Shown one piece after another: positions 18,985-35,572 of a stretch of DNA of 64,000 nt. Every line of letters starts with the position of its first letter. The first letter of the stretch is position 1. The translations under genes were made by a program, and so were the position numbers. Origin of the DNA: Pedobacter segetis (lineage in GTDB: Bacteria > Bacteroidota > Bacteroidia > Sphingobacteriales > Sphingobacteriaceae); contig NZ_JAEHFY010000022.1 in assembly GCF_016623585.1 (NCBI RefSeq), forward strand, positions 1-64,000, read 5' to 3'. A model generated the notes under the pieces. That model ran no database searches. It saw nothing but the letters and a program-made list of their open reading frames with translations, and was not told where the DNA came from.

Positions 18985-20313
18985 ATGGAATGGTATAGCT
19001 TTGGACTATTATTAGCTGATAATATAGCTCTTTTCTTAAAAATATTTGCAGCATCACTCATAATATATACTATCATTTTTAAAAGATTATATATATCGGT
19101 GCTCGATCCTATCGTTTTTACGTTACTTTTTTCTGTATTTGGTTTCACGGTTGTGTGGTTTCTGTATTTTACTAAGCAAATTCTCACTTTTTATTTAATT
19201 AGTTACTTATTAACACAAATTGCATTTTTTATTGGCTTATTTAGTTTCAAAAGTTTAAGCAAAACCAGCTTATTATCTAAAACAAAAATTATAAAGCTTA
19301 AAAATGAAACTTTATTTTTAAACCTGCTTTTTATTATCTCATCTACTCTATATATTTTACTTTGTATAAGTACTTATTTTTTAGTGGGAGTACCACTATT
19401 TATGGATTCTCATGTAGATATATATAGTAATAGTGGGGGCCTAGGATTTTTAGGCAGATTTATTGACGTTTTAAAACCTACATCAATTTTTTTATTGATT
19501 ATTTTATTATTTGACAGCCTAAAATTAAATCTTTTTACGTTATACAAATTTTTCTTTTTAATATGTATTATTATTTTTTCAGTTTTATCTGGAAGTAAAT
19601 CTGAGTTTATAAAAATTGGACTTATTTTCTTTTGCTTTCTAATACTAAATGCAAATAAGTATCACTCTTATTTCAACAAACTTAGGAAATACGAGATAGG
19701 TCTGTTTATTACTGCCTTTCTTATAATTATATCAGTTATTATGGTGCAAGGAAACACAAAAGACACTGTAAGCCTCAATGATTCCTTATTTTCTCTATAT
19801 TTTAGGATGGTTTCTTCTGGAGACACTTATTTTTTTGCATACCCAAATGGGGCGATAGAATCAATAAATGGTAATAAGCCTTTTTTAATGCTATTTGGAG
19901 ATTTTTTTGGAGCGTTACGATTTATCCCAAGAGAAAGCCTGCCAGAACCTCTAGGGATTACTTTATTTAATTTATACTTAAAAGCAGATTATGCAGCTGG
20001 GCCAAATCCTCGCCATAATGTACTAGGTTACGTATATTTTGGCTTTTATGGAAGTATTGTATTCTCCTTCTGTATAGGGTTTTTACTTAGCTTTTTCAGA
20101 AATAAATTATTTTTTACATTACGTAAAAATATATCTGGGCAACTTATATTTGTATTGGTTTACCTAAATCTTGTTGTTTTAGAAACAGATACACCTATGG
20201 CTTTATCTGGTATTGGTAATATATTGATTACCCTTCCTATATTATTAGCCATTACATTTCCTGTATTTTTAATATTAACCACATCTGTTAAAAAGCAACA
20301 TATATTATGTTAA
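18985..20313 (+). CDS. Oligosaccharide repeat-unit polymerase (Wzy-like)
   Basis: The 442-residue protein has about 10-12 hydrophobic helices with a large polar loop in the C-terminal half (about residues 255-340). The loop contains VSSGDTYFFAYPNG and GPNPRHNVLGYVYFGFYGS, a pattern seen in O-antigen polymerases, which otherwise share little sequence. It would join flipped repeat units in the periplasm into a polymer whose length is set by Wzz. The start follows the GT2 stop without a gap, and the end overlaps the next glycosyltransferase start by 7 bases. The topology and context make Wzy the best call, although the family is too diverse for proof by inspection. Confidence 0.78.
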   Translation: MEWYSFGLLLADNIALFLKIFAASLIIYTIIFKRLYISVLDPIVFTLLFSVFGFTVVWFLYFTKQILTFYLISYLLTQIAFFIGLFSFKSLSKTSLLSKTKIIKLKNETLFLNLLFIISSTLYILLCISTYFLVGVPLFMDSHVDIYSNSGGLGFLGRFIDVLKPTSIFLLIILLFDSLKLNLFTLYKFFFLICIIIFSVLSGSKSEFIKIGLIFFCFLILNANKYHSYFNKLRKYEIGLFITAFLIIISVIMVQGNTKDTVSLNDSLFSLYFRMVSSGDTYFFAYPNGAIESINGNKPFLMLFGDFFGALRFIPRESLPEPLGITLFNLYLKADYAAGPNPRHNVLGYVYFGFYGSIVFSFCIGFLLSFFRNKLFFTLRKNISGQLIFVLVYLNLVVLETDTPMALSGIGNILITLPILLAITFPVFLILTTSVKKQHILC

Positions 20314-21146
20314 AAATCTGTATATTAATTAGGGTATATGATAGGTTAGACGATTTAAAATATTGTTTACAACTTATTAACGATACTTGGTTAACAAACG
20401 ATTATTACATTTTAGTTGTTTGCAATGGAGTTTCTAAAGGCTACATCGTTAATCAAGAACTAGAGAAGGAAATTGATTATTTATTAGTGCTGGAGGAAAA
20501 TGCAGGTCATTTAAAGGGGAATGCCCAACTATTAACAGAGGGGTTAAAGTTTATACCTTATGACACCGCCTATACAATAATCTTAGAAGCCGATACGTGG
20601 ATTTATACAGATAGTATTATAAACAAATATATAAAGCAATTAGAGGAAACCAAAGCCGTTTGGGCTAGTGCGCAGTGGTACACTACTTATTTTTCTTTAG
20701 CAACTGATTTCGCTATTTTAGACCATAATTTCTTGAAGTTGCATCCCTTGGTTTTTAATTATACAGGTTATCCCGAATGTTATGCAGCCAATTACATTAA
20801 TGATAATGACCTTAAATATGTTTATATCAAAGAAAATATGCCGGTTCATCTTCCAAATTATTTAAAAAAGTATGTTTACGCTCCGGCGGGGCGGTTTAAT
20901 GTTTTTGTACGGTCTAAAATGGTAACACACCATACAGAGCAATACAAAAATGGTATATCAACAAAAAAGGCGCATTTAAATAGGGTAGCAGGTAAAGCTT
21001 ATTTTACAGATATCGAAACAGAAAATTATAATCTTCAAAAAAGCTTAATGAGCTTTTTAATTGCATTAGTTAATTTTTTACCCCGTAAAAGTTGGTTTTT
21101 AAAAACGCAACAATTTAATACTAAGATTACCCATGCCAACATTTAG
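20307..21146 (+). CDS. Putative GT-A type glycosyltransferase
   Basis: The 279-residue protein begins ICILIRVYDRLDDLKYCL, the first strand of a GT-A nucleotide-binding fold, and contains TIILEADTWIY near residue 92. This may be the DxD-like metal site (EAD). The rest does not match a family I recognise with certainty. It resembles small sugar transferases annotated as hypothetical in Bacteroidota polysaccharide loci. It starts inside the end of the Wzy gene, and its own last 14 bases contain the ATG at 21133 that would start the next gene. It therefore sits in a continuous chain of overlapping genes and probably acts on the same glycan. Confidence 0.62.
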   Translation: MLKICILIRVYDRLDDLKYCLQLINDTWLTNDYYILVVCNGVSKGYIVNQELEKEIDYLLVLEENAGHLKGNAQLLTEGLKFIPYDTAYTIILEADTWIYTDSIINKYIKQLEETKAVWASAQWYTTYFSLATDFAILDHNFLKLHPLVFNYTGYPECYAANYINDNDLKYVYIKENMPVHLPNYLKKYVYAPAGRFNVFVRSKMVTHHTEQYKNGISTKKAHLNRVAGKAYFTDIETENYNLQKSLMSFLIALVNFLPRKSWFLKTQQFNTKITHANI

Positions 21147-21196
21147 TAAAGATAAAATTGAAAAAATACGGGTCTTAGATTCCATACTAAGGAAAA

Positions 21197-21206
21197 TTTT
21201 TTTTTT
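21197..21206 (+). repeat. T10 homopolymer splitting the GT9 reading frame
   Basis: Ten T follow four A and precede GG and a run of seven A. An ATG at 21133, overlapping the previous stop, opens a frame that reads into this tract and stops at 21217-21219. With nine T the same frame would run on through WKKTKPLPKDKREVKEILIL into the heptosyltransferase-like gene. This is either a phase-variable tract or a sequencing error. Confidence 0.7.
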
Positions 21207-21274
21207 GGAAAAAAACTAAGCCTTTACCCAAGGATAAGAGGGAAGTTAAGGAAATTCTAATTTTAGGTTTCTTT

Positions 21275-22303
21275 TTGATTGGAGACACAATTCTTTATTC
21301 TTCTGCAATAAAGATTTTAAAAGAAAATTTCCCAAACGCTACCCTAACTCTAGTATGTGATAATACGGTCAAGGACCTAATATATAATCAGAAAATAGTT
21401 GATGAATTTATTATTCTAAAAGCACCTTGGATGGCAACAAGGCCAGTTGGAATAATTGGATTCATACGCTTTTTTATTTCAGTAAAAAAGAATATTAAAA
21501 AGAAGTATGATTTTGCCATAGATTTTAGAGGAGATCTTAGAAATTTTTTAGTTTTAAATATTATTAAAGCGAACCATAAGATTTCCCAGATATTTTTTGG
21601 TGGGGAGTATTTATTAACTTTTGCAATTAAGCCCAACAATGATTTAATTCATTTCCACGAAGAGTCTCTTTATTTCTTAGAAAAAATGGGTTGTGAGTAT
21701 ATTGGCGATAATTACCCTAGATTAGACAGGGAAGTAGCAGTAGAACTTTGTTCGAACTTCTTACTAGAAAATAAAATTGACCCATCAAAGACAATTATTG
21801 GCGTACACCCCGGCGCAAGCCAAGATGTAAAAAAATGGGACGAGGATAAGTACATACTACTTATAAAATATCTAGACCATAGATTTAAAGGACTACACTT
21901 TTTAATATTTCAAGGACCTAGCGAGGAAGAAACAATTGAAAAGATTGAAAAGGGTATTTTCGATATAGATTATACAATTGTTAACCGACCGTTGTCTGAA
22001 TATGTAAAGTTAATCTCGCTCTGCGAGGCATTGGTTTGTAATGATAGTGGGGCTGGACATATTGCAGCCGCCTATGCTATACCCTTAGTTGTGATTTTCG
22101 GAAATGTTAATCCTGATTTTGTCTATCCAAAGGGGTCGGTAGATCTTAGAATTATTTCTAACAATTTGGATTGTAAGCCATGCTTTAGTAGCACCTGTCG
22201 TTTTAAAACCAACGAATGCATAAAAGGTGTTGCATTTAAGGTTGTTGCTGAAAAAGCGGCTGATGTAATTAGTAATTTTTATTTTGTCAAAGATGATAAG
22301 TAG
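21275..22303 (+). CDS. Glycosyltransferase family 9, heptosyltransferase-like
   Basis: GT9 enzymes transfer heptose from ADP-heptose to LPS core or similar glycans. The 342 residues read here include IGVHPGASQDVKKWDEDKY, the donor-binding VCNDSGAGHIAAAYAIPLV, and CKPCFSSTC near the end, all typical of RfaF/WaaF-like proteins. The only in-frame start is TTG at 21275. It begins inside the first beta-alpha unit, since KEILILGFF just upstream is in the same frame and belongs to the fold. The true start is probably ATG 21133, reached through a one-base frameshift in the T10 tract. The gene leads a heptose module (epimerase, kinase, HldD, GmhA), which supports heptose as donor. As sequenced the protein is truncated and perhaps off. 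Confidence 0.85.
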   Translation: MIGDTILYSSAIKILKENFPNATLTLVCDNTVKDLIYNQKIVDEFIILKAPWMATRPVGIIGFIRFFISVKKNIKKKYDFAIDFRGDLRNFLVLNIIKANHKISQIFFGGEYLLTFAIKPNNDLIHFHEESLYFLEKMGCEYIGDNYPRLDREVAVELCSNFLLENKIDPSKTIIGVHPGASQDVKKWDEDKYILLIKYLDHRFKGLHFLIFQGPSEEETIEKIEKGIFDIDYTIVNRPLSEYVKLISLCEALVCNDSGAGHIAAAYAIPLVVIFGNVNPDFVYPKGSVDLRIISNNLDCKPCFSSTCRFKTNECIKGVAFKVVAEKAADVISNFYFVKDDK

Positions 22304-22901
22304 AAGGAATATTTCTTTTCTTTTTTATTACTTAAAAGGTATAATATTTTACAAGTTTTTTTTTCGGAAGACCTCTGGTTTTTTTCTGATAGTTAAACCT
22401 ATGCAAATCACACCTAAATTTATAAAGATTGGAAAAGGGGTTGTAATAAGAGAATACGCAAGGGTTGAAGGGATTACAAAATACGCGGGGGAAAATTTTT
22501 TTCCTAAGATTGAATTTGGAGAAAATGTAAAAATCCAACAATCGCTGCATTTAACATGCGCTAAGAAAGTATTTGTCGGAAAAGAAACAGCTATAGCGGC
22601 TAATGTCACGATCACTGATATAAACCATGGATACGAGATTCTAGATATTCCACCTGAAAGACAAAAAATAAACGTTCAGGAAGTCTATATTGGAATGAAT
22701 TGCAAAATTTATAACAATGCGGTCATTCTTCCAGGAACTATTCTAGGTAAGCAGGTGATAGTGGGAGCAAATTCAGTGGTTAAAGGTGTTTTCCCCGATT
22801 ATTGTGTAATAGCGGGGGCGCCAGCAAAAATTATTAAAAGGTATAATTTTACAAATAAGCAATGGGAAAAAACTAATTTTAACGGAGATTTTATATTATG
22901 A
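22293..22901 (+). CDS. Hexapeptide-repeat acyltransferase (LbH family)
   Basis: The roughly 202-residue protein has left-handed beta-helix repeats (FGENVKIQQSLHLTC, VGKETAIAANVTITDINHG). It also has the catalytic-histidine loop TDINHGY, then IGMNCKIYNNAVILPG and IVGANSVVKGVFPDYCVIAG. These are the marks of maltose/galactoside acetyltransferase-like enzymes that O-acetylate sugars. The start is ATG 22293, which overlaps the GT9 end by 11 bases; a TTG at 22284 is an alternative. The stop overlaps the next gene (ATGA). It probably acetylates a sugar of the heptose-containing glycan. The acceptor is inferred. Confidence 0.87.
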   Translation: MISRRNISFLFYYLKGIIFYKFFFRKTSGFFLIVKPMQITPKFIKIGKGVVIREYARVEGITKYAGENFFPKIEFGENVKIQQSLHLTCAKKVFVGKETAIAANVTITDINHGYEILDIPPERQKINVQEVYIGMNCKIYNNAVILPGTILGKQVIVGANSVVKGVFPDYCVIAGAPAKIIKRYNFTNKQWEKTNFNGDFIL

Positions 22902-24044: not shown

Positions 24045-25019
24045 ATGAATTATACGGCCAAAAATATAGAAGATAAGTTACCTTCATTAAATATTCTTAT
24101 AATTGGAGATGTGATGATAGATCATTATATCAATGGGAAATGTAGTAGAATATCTCCTGAAGCGCCAGTGCCTGTAGTGTTAACCACTAGTGAAGAATAT
24201 ACCCTAGGAGGCGCTGGAAACGTTTTTCAGAACCTAGTTTCCTTAGGTTGTAGAGTAAATTTACTTTCGGTTTCTGGTGATGATGAAAACGGCAAAAGAA
24301 TTACGAAGCTGTTAAAGGGAACAGCATCTAGCGAAAGCTACATTATAAGAGATCCAAAAAGATGTACAACAATAAAATCCCGAGTGCTTGTTTCAAACCA
24401 TCAAATGATACGTATTGATAATGAGGTAACCACGCGAATAGACGAAAGGGTAGAAAAACAAGTTTTTGACCGATTAACTGAAACAATCAGCGACTATAAT
24501 ATGGTTTTGATTTCGGACTATAGCAAGGGTTTTTTGACCGATTGTTTACTAGAGGGTATTTTTAATTTATGTAAGAAAAATAACGTCACAACTATTGTAG
24601 ATCCCAAAGGGGAAAGCTTTTTAAAGTACAGAGGGGCAGATTTTATAAAACCAAACAAAAAAGAAGCAATTATCGCTTCTGGGATAGAAATTACGGATAT
24701 AAATTCCGTGGAAGAAGCCTGCTTAAAATTGATAGCCCAAACCAAAGGTGACGGAGTTATAATAACGATGTCGGAAGATGGAATAGCCTCTTATAAAGAC
24801 AATGATTTAAACGTAAGTCCAACAAAAGTAATAGATGTAGTTGATGTTACTGGTGCAGGCGATACCGTTCTTGCCTCGTTAGGCATAGCCCTCGGGTGTA
24901 ATTTGCCTTTAATTGAAGCTTGCGATTTTGCAAACCATGTAGCTGCGGTTGTGGTTAGTAAGGTGGGCAGTGAAACGGCGACCTGGAAAGAAATACACGA
25001 AAAATATAAAAACAGTTAA
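24045..25019 (+). CDS. hldA: D-glycero-beta-D-manno-heptose-7-phosphate kinase (HldA/HldE kinase domain)
   Basis: This PfkB/ribokinase-fold enzyme phosphorylates C1 of heptose-7-phosphate to heptose-1,7-bisphosphate. The 324 residues match only the kinase half of E. coli HldE. Segments are GDVMIDHYINGKCSRISPEAP (with the RISPEAP substrate motif), YTLGGAGNVFQNLVSLG, and DVTGAGDTVLASL (about 267-279), which holds the catalytic aspartate. The nucleotidyltransferase half is absent, as in organisms with separate hldA and hldC. No hldC is seen in the window. The next gene (HldD) starts two bases after the stop, and GmhA follows, so three of the five ADP-heptose steps are encoded together. Confidence 0.9.
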   Translation: MNYTAKNIEDKLPSLNILIIGDVMIDHYINGKCSRISPEAPVPVVLTTSEEYTLGGAGNVFQNLVSLGCRVNLLSVSGDDENGKRITKLLKGTASSESYIIRDPKRCTTIKSRVLVSNHQMIRIDNEVTTRIDERVEKQVFDRLTETISDYNMVLISDYSKGFLTDCLLEGIFNLCKKNNVTTIVDPKGESFLKYRGADFIKPNKKEAIIASGIEITDINSVEEACLKLIAQTKGDGVIITMSEDGIASYKDNDLNVSPTKVIDVVDVTGAGDTVLASLGIALGCNLPLIEACDFANHVAAVVVSKVGSETATWKEIHEKYKNS

Positions 25020-25021
25020 TT

Positions 25022-26017
25022 TTGGAAAAAAGTATAATAATTACGGGAGCTGCTGGTTTCATAAGCTCTTGTCTCGTAGAGTATTTTAATGAAAAAGGAT
25101 ATAATAACCTTATCATTGTAGACGACTTTTCTCAAACACGGAAAGATTATAATTATGAAAATAAAAAGTTTGTAATTAAAATTGAACGTAGTGAACTGTT
25201 TGAGTGGTTACAGGCGAATGGAGATACCGTAGAGTTTGTGATTCATCTAGGCGCAAAAACAGATACAACAGAGTTTGACTATAATATTCATAACGAATTA
25301 AATGTGGAATACTCTAAAAATATATGGGGTTTTTGTGAAGAAAAAAACATCCCTTTAATATATGCTTCGTCTGCTGCTACCTATGGTGGAGGCGAATGGG
25401 GTTATGACGACAATCATGAGATTGTAGAAAAACTGCAACCTTTAAATCCTTATGGAGTTAGCAAAAACGAGTTTGATAAATGGGCTTTGAAACAGATTAA
25501 ATCGCCAAAGTATTGGTCGGGTTTAAAATTCTTTAATGTTTATGGCCCTAATGAGTATCATAAAGGGCGTATGGCAAGTGTGATATGGCATTCGTTTAAT
25601 CAAATTAAGCAAAATGGAAAAGTAAAGCTTTTTAAAAGCCATCGCAACGATTACCAAGACGGGCAACAACTTAGAGATTTTATTTATGTTATGGATTTAG
25701 TAAAGGTGATTTATTGGATGTATAATGAAATGAAATCCGAGCATTGGCAAAAAGAATTTAACGGATTATATAATCTAGGTACAGGACACGCAAGAAGCTT
25801 TTATGATTTGGCTAAGAACACTTTCCTTGCAATGAGTTTGGAACCAAATATTGAGTTTATTGATATGCCAATAGATATTAGAGACAAATACCAATATTTT
25901 ACAGAAGCCAATATGGATAAGCTAAGATTAGCGGGGTACAATGCGGAGTTTTACTCACTAGAGGAGGGTATTACTGATTATGTTAAAAAATATTTGTTGA
26001 AAGGAAAAATTTATTGA
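25022..26017 (+). CDS. hldD: ADP-L-glycero-D-manno-heptose 6-epimerase
   Basis: HldD inverts C6 of ADP-D-glycero-D-manno-heptose to give the L,D form used by heptosyltransferases. The 331-residue SDR contains SIIITGAAGFISSCLVEYF, IYASSAATYGGGEWGYDD with the serine site, LNPYGVSKNEFDKWAL with the Y-x3-K pair, and FFNVYGPNEYHKGRMASV, all typical of RfaD/HldD. The third glycine of the GxxGxxG NAD motif is a serine (GAAGFIS), an unusual but conservative change. The start is TTG at 25022, two bases after the kinase stop; no ATG precedes the Rossmann motif. GmhA overlaps its end. Confidence 0.92.
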   Translation: MEKSIIITGAAGFISSCLVEYFNEKGYNNLIIVDDFSQTRKDYNYENKKFVIKIERSELFEWLQANGDTVEFVIHLGAKTDTTEFDYNIHNELNVEYSKNIWGFCEEKNIPLIYASSAATYGGGEWGYDDNHEIVEKLQPLNPYGVSKNEFDKWALKQIKSPKYWSGLKFFNVYGPNEYHKGRMASVIWHSFNQIKQNGKVKLFKSHRNDYQDGQQLRDFIYVMDLVKVIYWMYNEMKSEHWQKEFNGLYNLGTGHARSFYDLAKNTFLAMSLEPNIEFIDMPIDIRDKYQYFTEANMDKLRLAGYNAEFYSLEEGITDYVKKYLLKGKIY

Positions 26018-26583
26018 TGATAGAGCAAATTAAAGGTGTTTTTGCAGATCACGCAGAAGTGGTAAGAAAATCAGAAGAAGAGCTTAGCGAGAAGCTTATA
26101 GAGGTTTGTAACATTATTAGTAATTGCATTACCGCTGGAAAAAAGGTTTTACTTTTTGGAAATGGGGGTAGCGCATCTGACGCACAACATATTGCCGCCG
26201 AGTTTGTAGGTAGGTTTCTTGCGGAGAGAAGGGCATTGCCAGCCATTGCTTTGACAACAGATACGTCAGCATTAACAGCTATAGCAAATGATTACGGTTA
26301 TGAAATGGTTTTTTCACGACAAGTTGAAGCTTTGGCAAACAAAGATGATGTTGTTATCGGAATATCAACTAGCGGAAATAGCCAGAATGTTTTAGAAGGA
26401 CTGAAAGCCGCTAGCCAACTAGAATGTAAAGTTATTGGTTTTAGTGGCAATTCTGGAGGAAAAATGAATGATATATGTGAGTTTAACTTAGTAGTACCTT
26501 CTAACGTAACGGCTAGGATTCAAGAGGTACACATTTTATTAGGTCATATTATTTGTATGTCAGTAGACAAAAGTCTGATTTAA
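26014..26583 (+). CDS. gmhA: Sedoheptulose-7-phosphate isomerase
   Basis: GmhA converts sedoheptulose-7-phosphate to D-glycero-D-manno-heptose-7-phosphate, the first step of heptose synthesis. The 189-residue SIS-domain protein shows LLFGNGGSASDAQHIAAEF, ALTTDTSALTAIANDYGYE, VIGISTSGNSQNVLEGLK, and ARIQEVHILLGHIIC near the end. These include the residues around the zinc/substrate site of GmhA. The start overlaps the HldD end, and the next gene follows after one base. It completes the GmhA-HldA-HldD set. GmhB and HldC are not present in the window and must be elsewhere if ADP-heptose is the product. Confidence 0.95.
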   Translation: MMIEQIKGVFADHAEVVRKSEEELSEKLIEVCNIISNCITAGKKVLLFGNGGSASDAQHIAAEFVGRFLAERRALPAIALTTDTSALTAIANDYGYEMVFSRQVEALANKDDVVIGISTSGNSQNVLEGLKAASQLECKVIGFSGNSGGKMNDICEFNLVVPSNVTARIQEVHILLGHIICMSVDKSLI

Positions 26584-34462: not shown

Positions 34463-35572
34463 CTAAACATTTGTGTTTTGTGATTTTACATCGTACAAAT
34501 CTCTAAGCCCTATGGTTATCAGGTTAAAAGAATAAACCATCAGCATGATCATTAAGCCTGGTACCACCGCTAAAAATGCGCCATCCATAATAATATAACC
34601 ATAATGTTCTTTGATCATGCCCCCCCAAGTGGGCATTGGGGGCTGTGCGCCGAAGCCCAAAAAGCTTAAACCTGCTTCTAATAAGATTGCCGATGCAAAA
34701 TTAGAGGCGGTAACTACCCATATTGGCCCTAAAATATTGGGCAATATATGTTTATAAATAATCCTACCGTTAGGGAAACCCAAAGATTTTGCTGCTTCTA
34801 TAAATTGAGCGTTTTTTAATGCGATAACCTGCCCCCTAACCAACCTTGCCACTTCTACCCACATAGATAAACCTACGGCAATAAAAACTTGCCAAAACCC
34901 TTTCCCCAATGCAAATGAAATGGCAATAACCAATAATAATGCAGGTAATGACCATAAAACATTCATCAACCAACTGATACAAACATCGGCTTTGCCACCA
35001 AAATAACCAGCCGTTGCACCTAAAGAAACCCCCAAAAACAAACTGATCATTACCGCCACAAAGCCTACCATTAAAGATACCCTAGATCCAATAATTATCC
35101 GGCTCAACATATCTCTGCCATAAACATCTGTGCCTAGCCAATAGGTTCTTTTGATGATGTTTTCTTGTTTTATTTCTGTTATCGATTTATTACCGAAAGC
35201 GAGCAATTTCATTTTTTTGGGCTCGCCCTTCTCATTACCGCCAATATATTCGTGATAATAGATGCTGTTATTTCCAAATCTATAATCATAGATGGGTATA
35301 TAATTGAACCTTGGCTCTTGCCCAAATAGCATTTTGACTAAAAAATTTACCTTTTTAGGCTGGGGGTTTTTTGGGATTTTTAAAAGTGTAGCCGTTTTGC
35401 CTGGTTTTTCTATATTTAATTGAAGGTTCATCTGATTGGCCATAGGGCTATCATCTGGGGTGATAAGATAACCCAAAACAGAGAGCAGGCTTACCAAAAC
35501 AATAAAAAACAACCCAAATAAAGAGAACTTGTTTCTCTTGAATTTTTTCCATGATGATTGATTTTCTTCCAA
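34463..35572 (-). CDS. ABC transporter permease, OppC/DppC type
   Basis: The 369-residue inner-membrane protein has an OppC-like N-terminal helix (SLFGLFFIVLVSLLSVLGYLI). An unusually long soluble insertion of about 95 residues follows (about 45-140), and then YWLGTDVYGRDMLSRIIIGS with five further helices. The EAA loop that contacts the ATPase is EAAKSLGFPNGRIIYKHILPN. It would be one of the two permeases of a dipeptide/oligopeptide importer. No OppB permease, binding protein or ATPase is in the window, so the rest is encoded elsewhere. The insertion between the first helix and the LGTD motif is characteristic of Bacteroidota OppC-type proteins. Confidence 0.9.
   Translation of the reverse strand: MEENQSSWKKFKRNKFSLFGLFFIVLVSLLSVLGYLITPDDSPMANQMNLQLNIEKPGKTATLLKIPKNPQPKKVNFLVKMLFGQEPRFNYIPIYDYRFGNNSIYYHEYIGGNEKGEPKKMKLLAFGNKSITEIKQENIIKRTYWLGTDVYGRDMLSRIIIGSRVSLMVGFVAVMISLFLGVSLGATAGYFGGKADVCISWLMNVLWSLPALLLVIAISFALGKGFWQVFIAVGLSMWVEVARLVRGQVIALKNAQFIEAAKSLGFPNGRIIYKHILPNILGPIWVVTASNFASAILLEAGLSFLGFGAQPPMPTWGGMIKEHYGYIIMDGAFLAVVPGLMIMLMVYSFNLITIGLRDLYDVKSQNTNV

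Follow-up and report, generated by a model that had tools for sequence, protein, structure and literature searches.

Does a run of ten T near the 5' end of a GT9 glycosyltransferase gene of Pedobacter segetis mark a gene that slippage can switch, a gene miscalled by one base, or a gene that starts elsewhere? The run lies at 21197-21206 of the window, the whole stretch of 64,000 nt analysed here, which lies on contig C14 of a 3.84 Mb draft genome of 72 contigs (99.84% complete by the figure of the tool used). In the initial annotation, this T10 was said to split an ATG at 21133, coupled to the preceding gene, from the GT9 frame, and inspection of the sequence confirmed coordinates, stops and frames alike. 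The features of the locus are the following.

20307-21146, plus strand: preceding gene, 279 amino acids, without Pfam match, overlapping ATG 21133 (open reading frame and Pfam search)
21133-21216, plus strand: N-terminal 28 codons of the GT9 gene from its predicted real start, frame 1 (ungapped match to orthologue N-termini)
21197-21206, plus strand: T10 run, likeliest site of the break (sequence)
21209-21215, plus strand: A7 run, second candidate site of the break (sequence)
21209-22303, plus strand: GT9 domain, read in the other frame and given with its stop codon (PF01075, E 5.1e-28; structure model and fold match)
21275-21277, plus strand: TTG, first conventional start of the GT9 frame, which falls after the first beta strand and is not taken as the natural start (homologues, model)
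22296-22901, plus strand: hexapeptide-type acyltransferase, overlapping the GT9 stop, with an in-frame T9 at 22356-22364 (domain search)
24045-26583, plus strand: HldA-like kinase, HldD-like epimerase and GmhA-like isomerase (NCBIfam-type models)

A one-base frame break near the 5' end of the GT9 gene

The ATG at 21133 overlaps the stop of the preceding open reading frame and opens a frame of 28 codons, which reads MPTFSKDKIEKIRVLDSILRKIFFLEKN and closes at TAA 21217-21219. The GT9 frame is open from just 5' of the T10 to 22300 (370 codons from stop to stop), and the first ATG, GTG or TTG within it is TTG 21275. On its 5' side this frame is closed by TAA 21188-21190, so that starts further upstream cannot serve it. 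The T10 splits the gene at codon 22 and covers codons 22-25; a long run is thus found within the gene and close to its 5' end, and the register is broken.

The initial annotation had also held that removal of one T joins the two frames. The one-base offset in register stands, but the assignment to the T run does not stand alone, as the adjoining A7 run (21209-21215) could equally hold the shift. We place the break most likely in the T10 rather than in the A7, as longer runs slip more.

The enzyme domain and its operon

The domain behind the break matches PF01075 with 98.5 bits, against a gathering score of 22 (E 5.1e-28). Its structure model has a mean pLDDT of 87.6, and the best matches of its GT-B fold are 3TOV, 1PSW (WaaF) and 2H1H (WaaC); 3TOV, a GT9 structure from Veillonella and also the top fold match, aligns from query residue 13. 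No second lesion was found in the remaining 364 codons of the gene, and residues that are invariant in five orthologues (IGDT, DFRGD, CNDSGA and others) are present in the window GT9. The curated NCBIfam cut-offs for LPS heptosyltransferases I, II and III were missed (best score 91.2 bits, versus 134.6 for type II), and the protein is therefore not classed as an LPS-core heptosyltransferase. The gene product is a GT9 glycosyltransferase and probably acts as a heptosyltransferase on a surface polysaccharide; ADP-heptose as its donor is suggested by the neighbouring HldA-, HldD- and GmhA-like genes only. A second GT9 gene of the genome, with an open frame of 328 codons, lies on contig C66.

The placement of the gene in a surface-polysaccharide operon is borne out by its neighbours, which comprise the HldA-, HldD- and GmhA-like genes and, also downstream, a transferase of the WaaS/CpsH family. 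The HldD-like protein scores above its curated cut-off, and the kinase (331 versus 345 bits) and the isomerase (208 versus 209.45) score just below theirs. The three genes would likely supply ADP-heptose, and the neighbours fit an operon for a heptose-containing surface polysaccharide. Heptose is likely, short of proof, since the kinase and the isomerase fall just under their cut-offs and the GT9 protein fails those for LPS heptosyltransferases. In the sequence as given, the break sits in an otherwise undamaged gene of this predicted ADP-heptose and surface-glycan operon.

In all five Sphingobacteriaceae loci with a homologue of the GT9 gene, the hexapeptide-type acyltransferase gene comes next. 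A homologue of the 279-residue protein is encoded before the GT9 gene in both Mucilaginibacter loci, and a different gene stands there in the three Pedobacter loci. The G+C content of the operon is 31%, versus 36% for the window. As the best match to HldD in 17 other genomes of the genus reaches 26% (E 6.2e-13) and none is close, the heptose gene cluster may have been acquired. The T9 at 22356-22364, which lies near the start of the acyltransferase gene and is read as Lys-Phe-Phe-Phe-Arg-Lys, is a second slippage-prone site of the operon.

Homologues of the upstream segment

N-termini were examined in the best 11 of 24 loci found, five from Sphingobacteriaceae and six from Firmicutes, with the 13 weaker loci and other GT9 matches at 21-31% left out. 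The Sphingobacteriaceae homologues, from Pedobacter petrophilus, P. mendelii, Pedobacter sp. AK013, Mucilaginibacter polytrichastri and the Mucilaginibacter MAG RYN_329, are 38-43% identical to the window GT9 protein over the domain. Four, at 40-44%, were found among 400 genomes of the order, all within the family, and the fifth was added by a genus-level search in which 2 of 149 genomes matched, the other match being already known. A scan of named genomes gave no match with the single window protein as query; with an alignment as query it returned these five as well as the six Firmicutes homologues (29-37% identity). The nearest homologues are from Sphingobacteriaceae (Pedobacter, Mucilaginibacter).

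In 11 of 11 homologues examined, the upstream segment and the GT9 domain share one unbroken frame, and the segment, counted from the first in-frame ATG, has Phe-Asn or Phe-Asp conserved at about residue 4. No gap is needed to align the 28-residue piece of the window with residues 1-28 of P. mendelii and P. petrophilus, and 13 of 27 positions after the Met are identical; for these two, none of 20,000 composition shuffles scored as well. Across the 11 homologues, this test gave 0 of 20,000 for six, 4 to 54 of 20,000 for four, and 416 of 20,000 for the weakest (AK013). The earlier proposal that the upstream segment is part of the gene is thus upheld by the single frame and the ungapped Pedobacter match, and we conclude from the alignments that the 28-codon segment belongs to the GT9 gene, whose real start is predicted to be ATG 21133.

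The model of the P. mendelii orthologue shows a helix at residues 6-23 (modest confidence), a linker at 24-30 (pLDDT below 50) and the first strand at 42-47, and the position of the T10 falls at the end of the N-terminal helix and the start of the linker. As given, the sequence has a genuine frame break, which on this model lies in the linker between the N-terminal helix and the enzyme domain. The linker is shorter by three residues in all six Firmicutes homologues, right at the break of the window gene, and the DNA alignment has an 8-base gap beside the T run of the window and a 3-base insertion further along. Since linker length varies between homologues, the alignments cannot fix the exact base that shifted; other tract lengths in the correct register should, by the same token, be tolerated.

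No run of at least nine bases occurs in the first 180 nt of any of the 11 homologues examined, which gives no indication of an old, selected switch. Shorter in-frame T runs, encoding Phe-Phe, stand at about the same place in three of the 11: T6 in the Mucilaginibacter MAG (with A8 just behind), T6 in Oribacterium and T8 in a Lachnospiraceae MAG. The five Sphingobacteriaceae homologues therefore resemble the window gene in N-terminal segment, domain and following acyltransferase, and differ from it in their continuous frame and in the absence of a run of at least nine from that stretch. The 17 other genomes of the genus that were searched contain no orthologue: their best match to the GT9 protein covers part of it at 29% identity (E 2.8e-19), so that none of them supplies a close relative in which the tract could be seen at a different length.

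A/T runs in the operon and in the genome

Counted over the genome, A/T runs of exactly 8 bases occur 987 times and those of exactly 9 occur 205 times, while 30 runs reach 10 or more. The length of the T10 is thus unremarkable for this genome; its place within a gene is notable. In the operon genes, TTT makes up 82% of Phe codons. When synonymous codons were resampled in the operon coding frames, a count from which the T10 itself is absent as it lies outside the counted frame, 8 runs of at least 8 were observed versus 10.9 expected, and 1 run of at least 9 versus 3.5 expected, the observed number being reached in 460 and 495 of 500 resamplings, respectively. The operon is not enriched for long A/T runs, of which it has fewer than synonymous resampling gives, and the T10 is therefore explicable without selection. 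The longest A/T run of the genome is a T15 at C70:53398-53412, which no long open reading frame spans, and the longest G/C run of the window is a C7 at 34620-34626, in an open reading frame at 34463-35572 (minus strand).

Two screens looked for other genes broken at such runs. In the first, a coding score over 180 nt on either side was used to classify 124 runs (94 of length 9 and 30 of at least 10). For 18 runs (15 of length 9, 3 of at least 10) both flanks were coding and shared a frame, 49 had a single coding flank and 55 were noncoding. The remaining two, both of length 9, were flagged as shifted; read by eye in three frames, they look like junctions at which one gene ends and another begins. 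This screen is blind near gene starts and misses the T10 itself, whose 5' part is too short.

The second screen covered 126 runs (30 of 30 of length at least 10 and 96 of 205 of length 9) and asked for a long coding-like frame after the tract without an ATG within 12 codons. It flagged 9 of 126, with thresholds that were set with the T10 known and are thus not independent of it. The T10 has the longest start gap (22 codons to TTG, 74 to ATG). One further flag, L056, has a 21-codon gap and lies antisense to a 356-codon frame, and in each of the remaining seven a start codon (ATG, GTG or TTG) occurs before the tract, at it or within 15 codons. Long coding-like frames whose first ATG comes 70-82 codons on were seen behind three nine-base runs, L165, L166 and L212 (tracts at 1534, 1594 on the minus strand, and 1485), which have only GTG or TTG near the run and may be frame breaks or plain alternative starts.

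Origin of the frame break

We infer that the window carries a slippage-made, reversible OFF allele of the GT9 gene that starts at ATG 21133, a reading to which we give about an even chance. Replication slippage in the T10, or less likely in the A7, would have shifted the N-terminal segment by one base against the reading frame of the domain; ribosomes coming from 21133 would then stop at 21217 after 28 codons, leaving the allele OFF or nearly so. If translation ends there, little or no enzyme should be made, and translational coupling to the gene that follows should be weakened. With the lesion in a slippage-prone run, reversion is expected far more often than for an ordinary mutation, and mechanistically this would be an on/off contingency allele. 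Length changes in the 5' poly(T) and poly(A) tracts of flhA and swrA are reported at about 3e-4 to 7e-6 (PMC2831843), rates at which reversal should be frequent. As judged from a single sequence, phase variation of the GT9 gene is possible. The wider proposal, that the T10 serves as a functioning switch or dose control for a surface polysaccharide of this member of the Sphingobacteriaceae, with DNA slippage turning sugar addition on or off from cell to cell or RNA-polymerase slippage setting its dose within each cell, is tentative, and we lean against it.

The T10 could instead be kept and the gene still expressed, if RNA-polymerase slippage gave a share of in-frame mRNA and some enzyme in each cell. 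The otherwise undamaged GT9 gene is consistent with this, and precedents are reported for the A11 run of C. rodentium tssM1 (PMC4256274) and for Blochmannia, where RNA slippage may correct tract frameshifts (PMC3017870); selection against slippage is described as evident from nine A or T in many genomes (PMC1088944). However, no other such frame-broken gene was identified among the screened runs, and an out-of-frame tract is found in none of the 11 homologues examined, so that we consider rescue at the level of the transcript unlikely.

A one-base assembly or sequencing error in the T10 or the A7 would leave the gene intact in the cell. The undamaged remainder of the gene is equally what this would produce, the genome is a 72-contig draft, and short reads can yield false homopolymer indels, albeit mostly in runs of more than 14 bases (PMC8808543). 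All 18 clearly intragenic runs of at least nine are in frame, which argues that the assembly seldom miscalls such runs, although 18 cases still allow an error rate of about 15% per run and a single error is well possible. On balance, an error of this kind is an unlikely source of the break.

It is very improbable that the GT9 protein starts downstream, at TTG 21275 or at a non-standard ATT, with the 28-codon frame as a leader or a product of chance. TTG 21275 is indeed the first conventional start in the frame, and homologues beginning at this TTG had been named beforehand as the observation that would speak for it, but none of the 11 examined begins there. In the modelled domain the first beta strand comprises residues 15-19 and the TTG corresponds to residue 23, so that a protein starting there is predicted to lose this strand; moreover, the similarity of the 28-residue piece to orthologue N-termini greatly exceeds what chance would give. 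The TTG as natural start is thus largely refuted by the 11 homologues and the loss of the first strand. Judged by the sequence, a programmed ribosomal frameshift would require the ribosome to advance by one base. A terminator or attenuator at the tract is rejected, as no terminator-like site occurs in 20900-21500 and RNA folding around the tract is no better than that of shuffles (z 0.61, its stability being equalled or exceeded by 144 of 200 shuffles).

Comparison with known systems

An OFF allele made by slippage has counterparts in other bacteria. The window gene shares with C. coli flhA, B. subtilis swrA and L. monocytogenes inlA an A/T homopolymer near the 5' end, a one-base shift and an early stop; those genes are unrelated to GT9 and have observed length variants, as reported in PMC2831843, whereas the window gene is known from a single sequence. 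C. jejuni wlaN and other phase-variable LOS transferases resemble the proposed switch in that a surface-glycan transferase is under the control of tract length, but wlaN encodes a galactosyltransferase and has a poly(G) tract with proven G8/G9 variants (PMC7248181), unlike the T10 of the window. In tssM1 of C. rodentium, a long A/T run likewise interrupts the frame of an otherwise sound gene; that run is a poly(A) tract located late in the gene, and RNA heterogeneity was measured for it (PMC4256274), while the window gene is known from DNA alone. Within Bacteroidota, work on the capsule of B. fragilis reports a run of 4 C that carries a frameshift, for which slippage is suggested (PMC3090145).

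A described case of a homopolymer-switched glycosyltransferase in Sphingobacteriaceae was not found in the portions of the open-access literature on Bacteroidetes, Flavobacterium and Sphingobacteria that were retrieved, and an open-access search on heptosyltransferases brought up only work on C. jejuni and H. pylori. Homopolymer frameshift alleles are a known mechanism, and the window gene is a plausible new surface-glycan case of it in Sphingobacteriaceae.

If the gene switches, it would offer a free-living member of the Bacteroidota a simple way to vary its surface, which could be relevant to phage attack or grazing. Gut relatives among the Bacteroidota are known for DNA inversions, and a true T10 switch would give environmental members a homopolymer contingency system beside these. 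If there is no switching, the gene model is still corrected: the TTG-started protein would be a product of the frame break, with the real start at 21133, and a purely automatic open reading frame call would lose an N-terminal segment that is common even to the Firmicutes homologues.

In this GT9 group, the N-terminal helix segment is Lys-rich, has Phe-Asn near residue 4 and recurs in the six Firmicutes homologues; it is covered neither by Pfam nor by the matches to solved GT9 structures.
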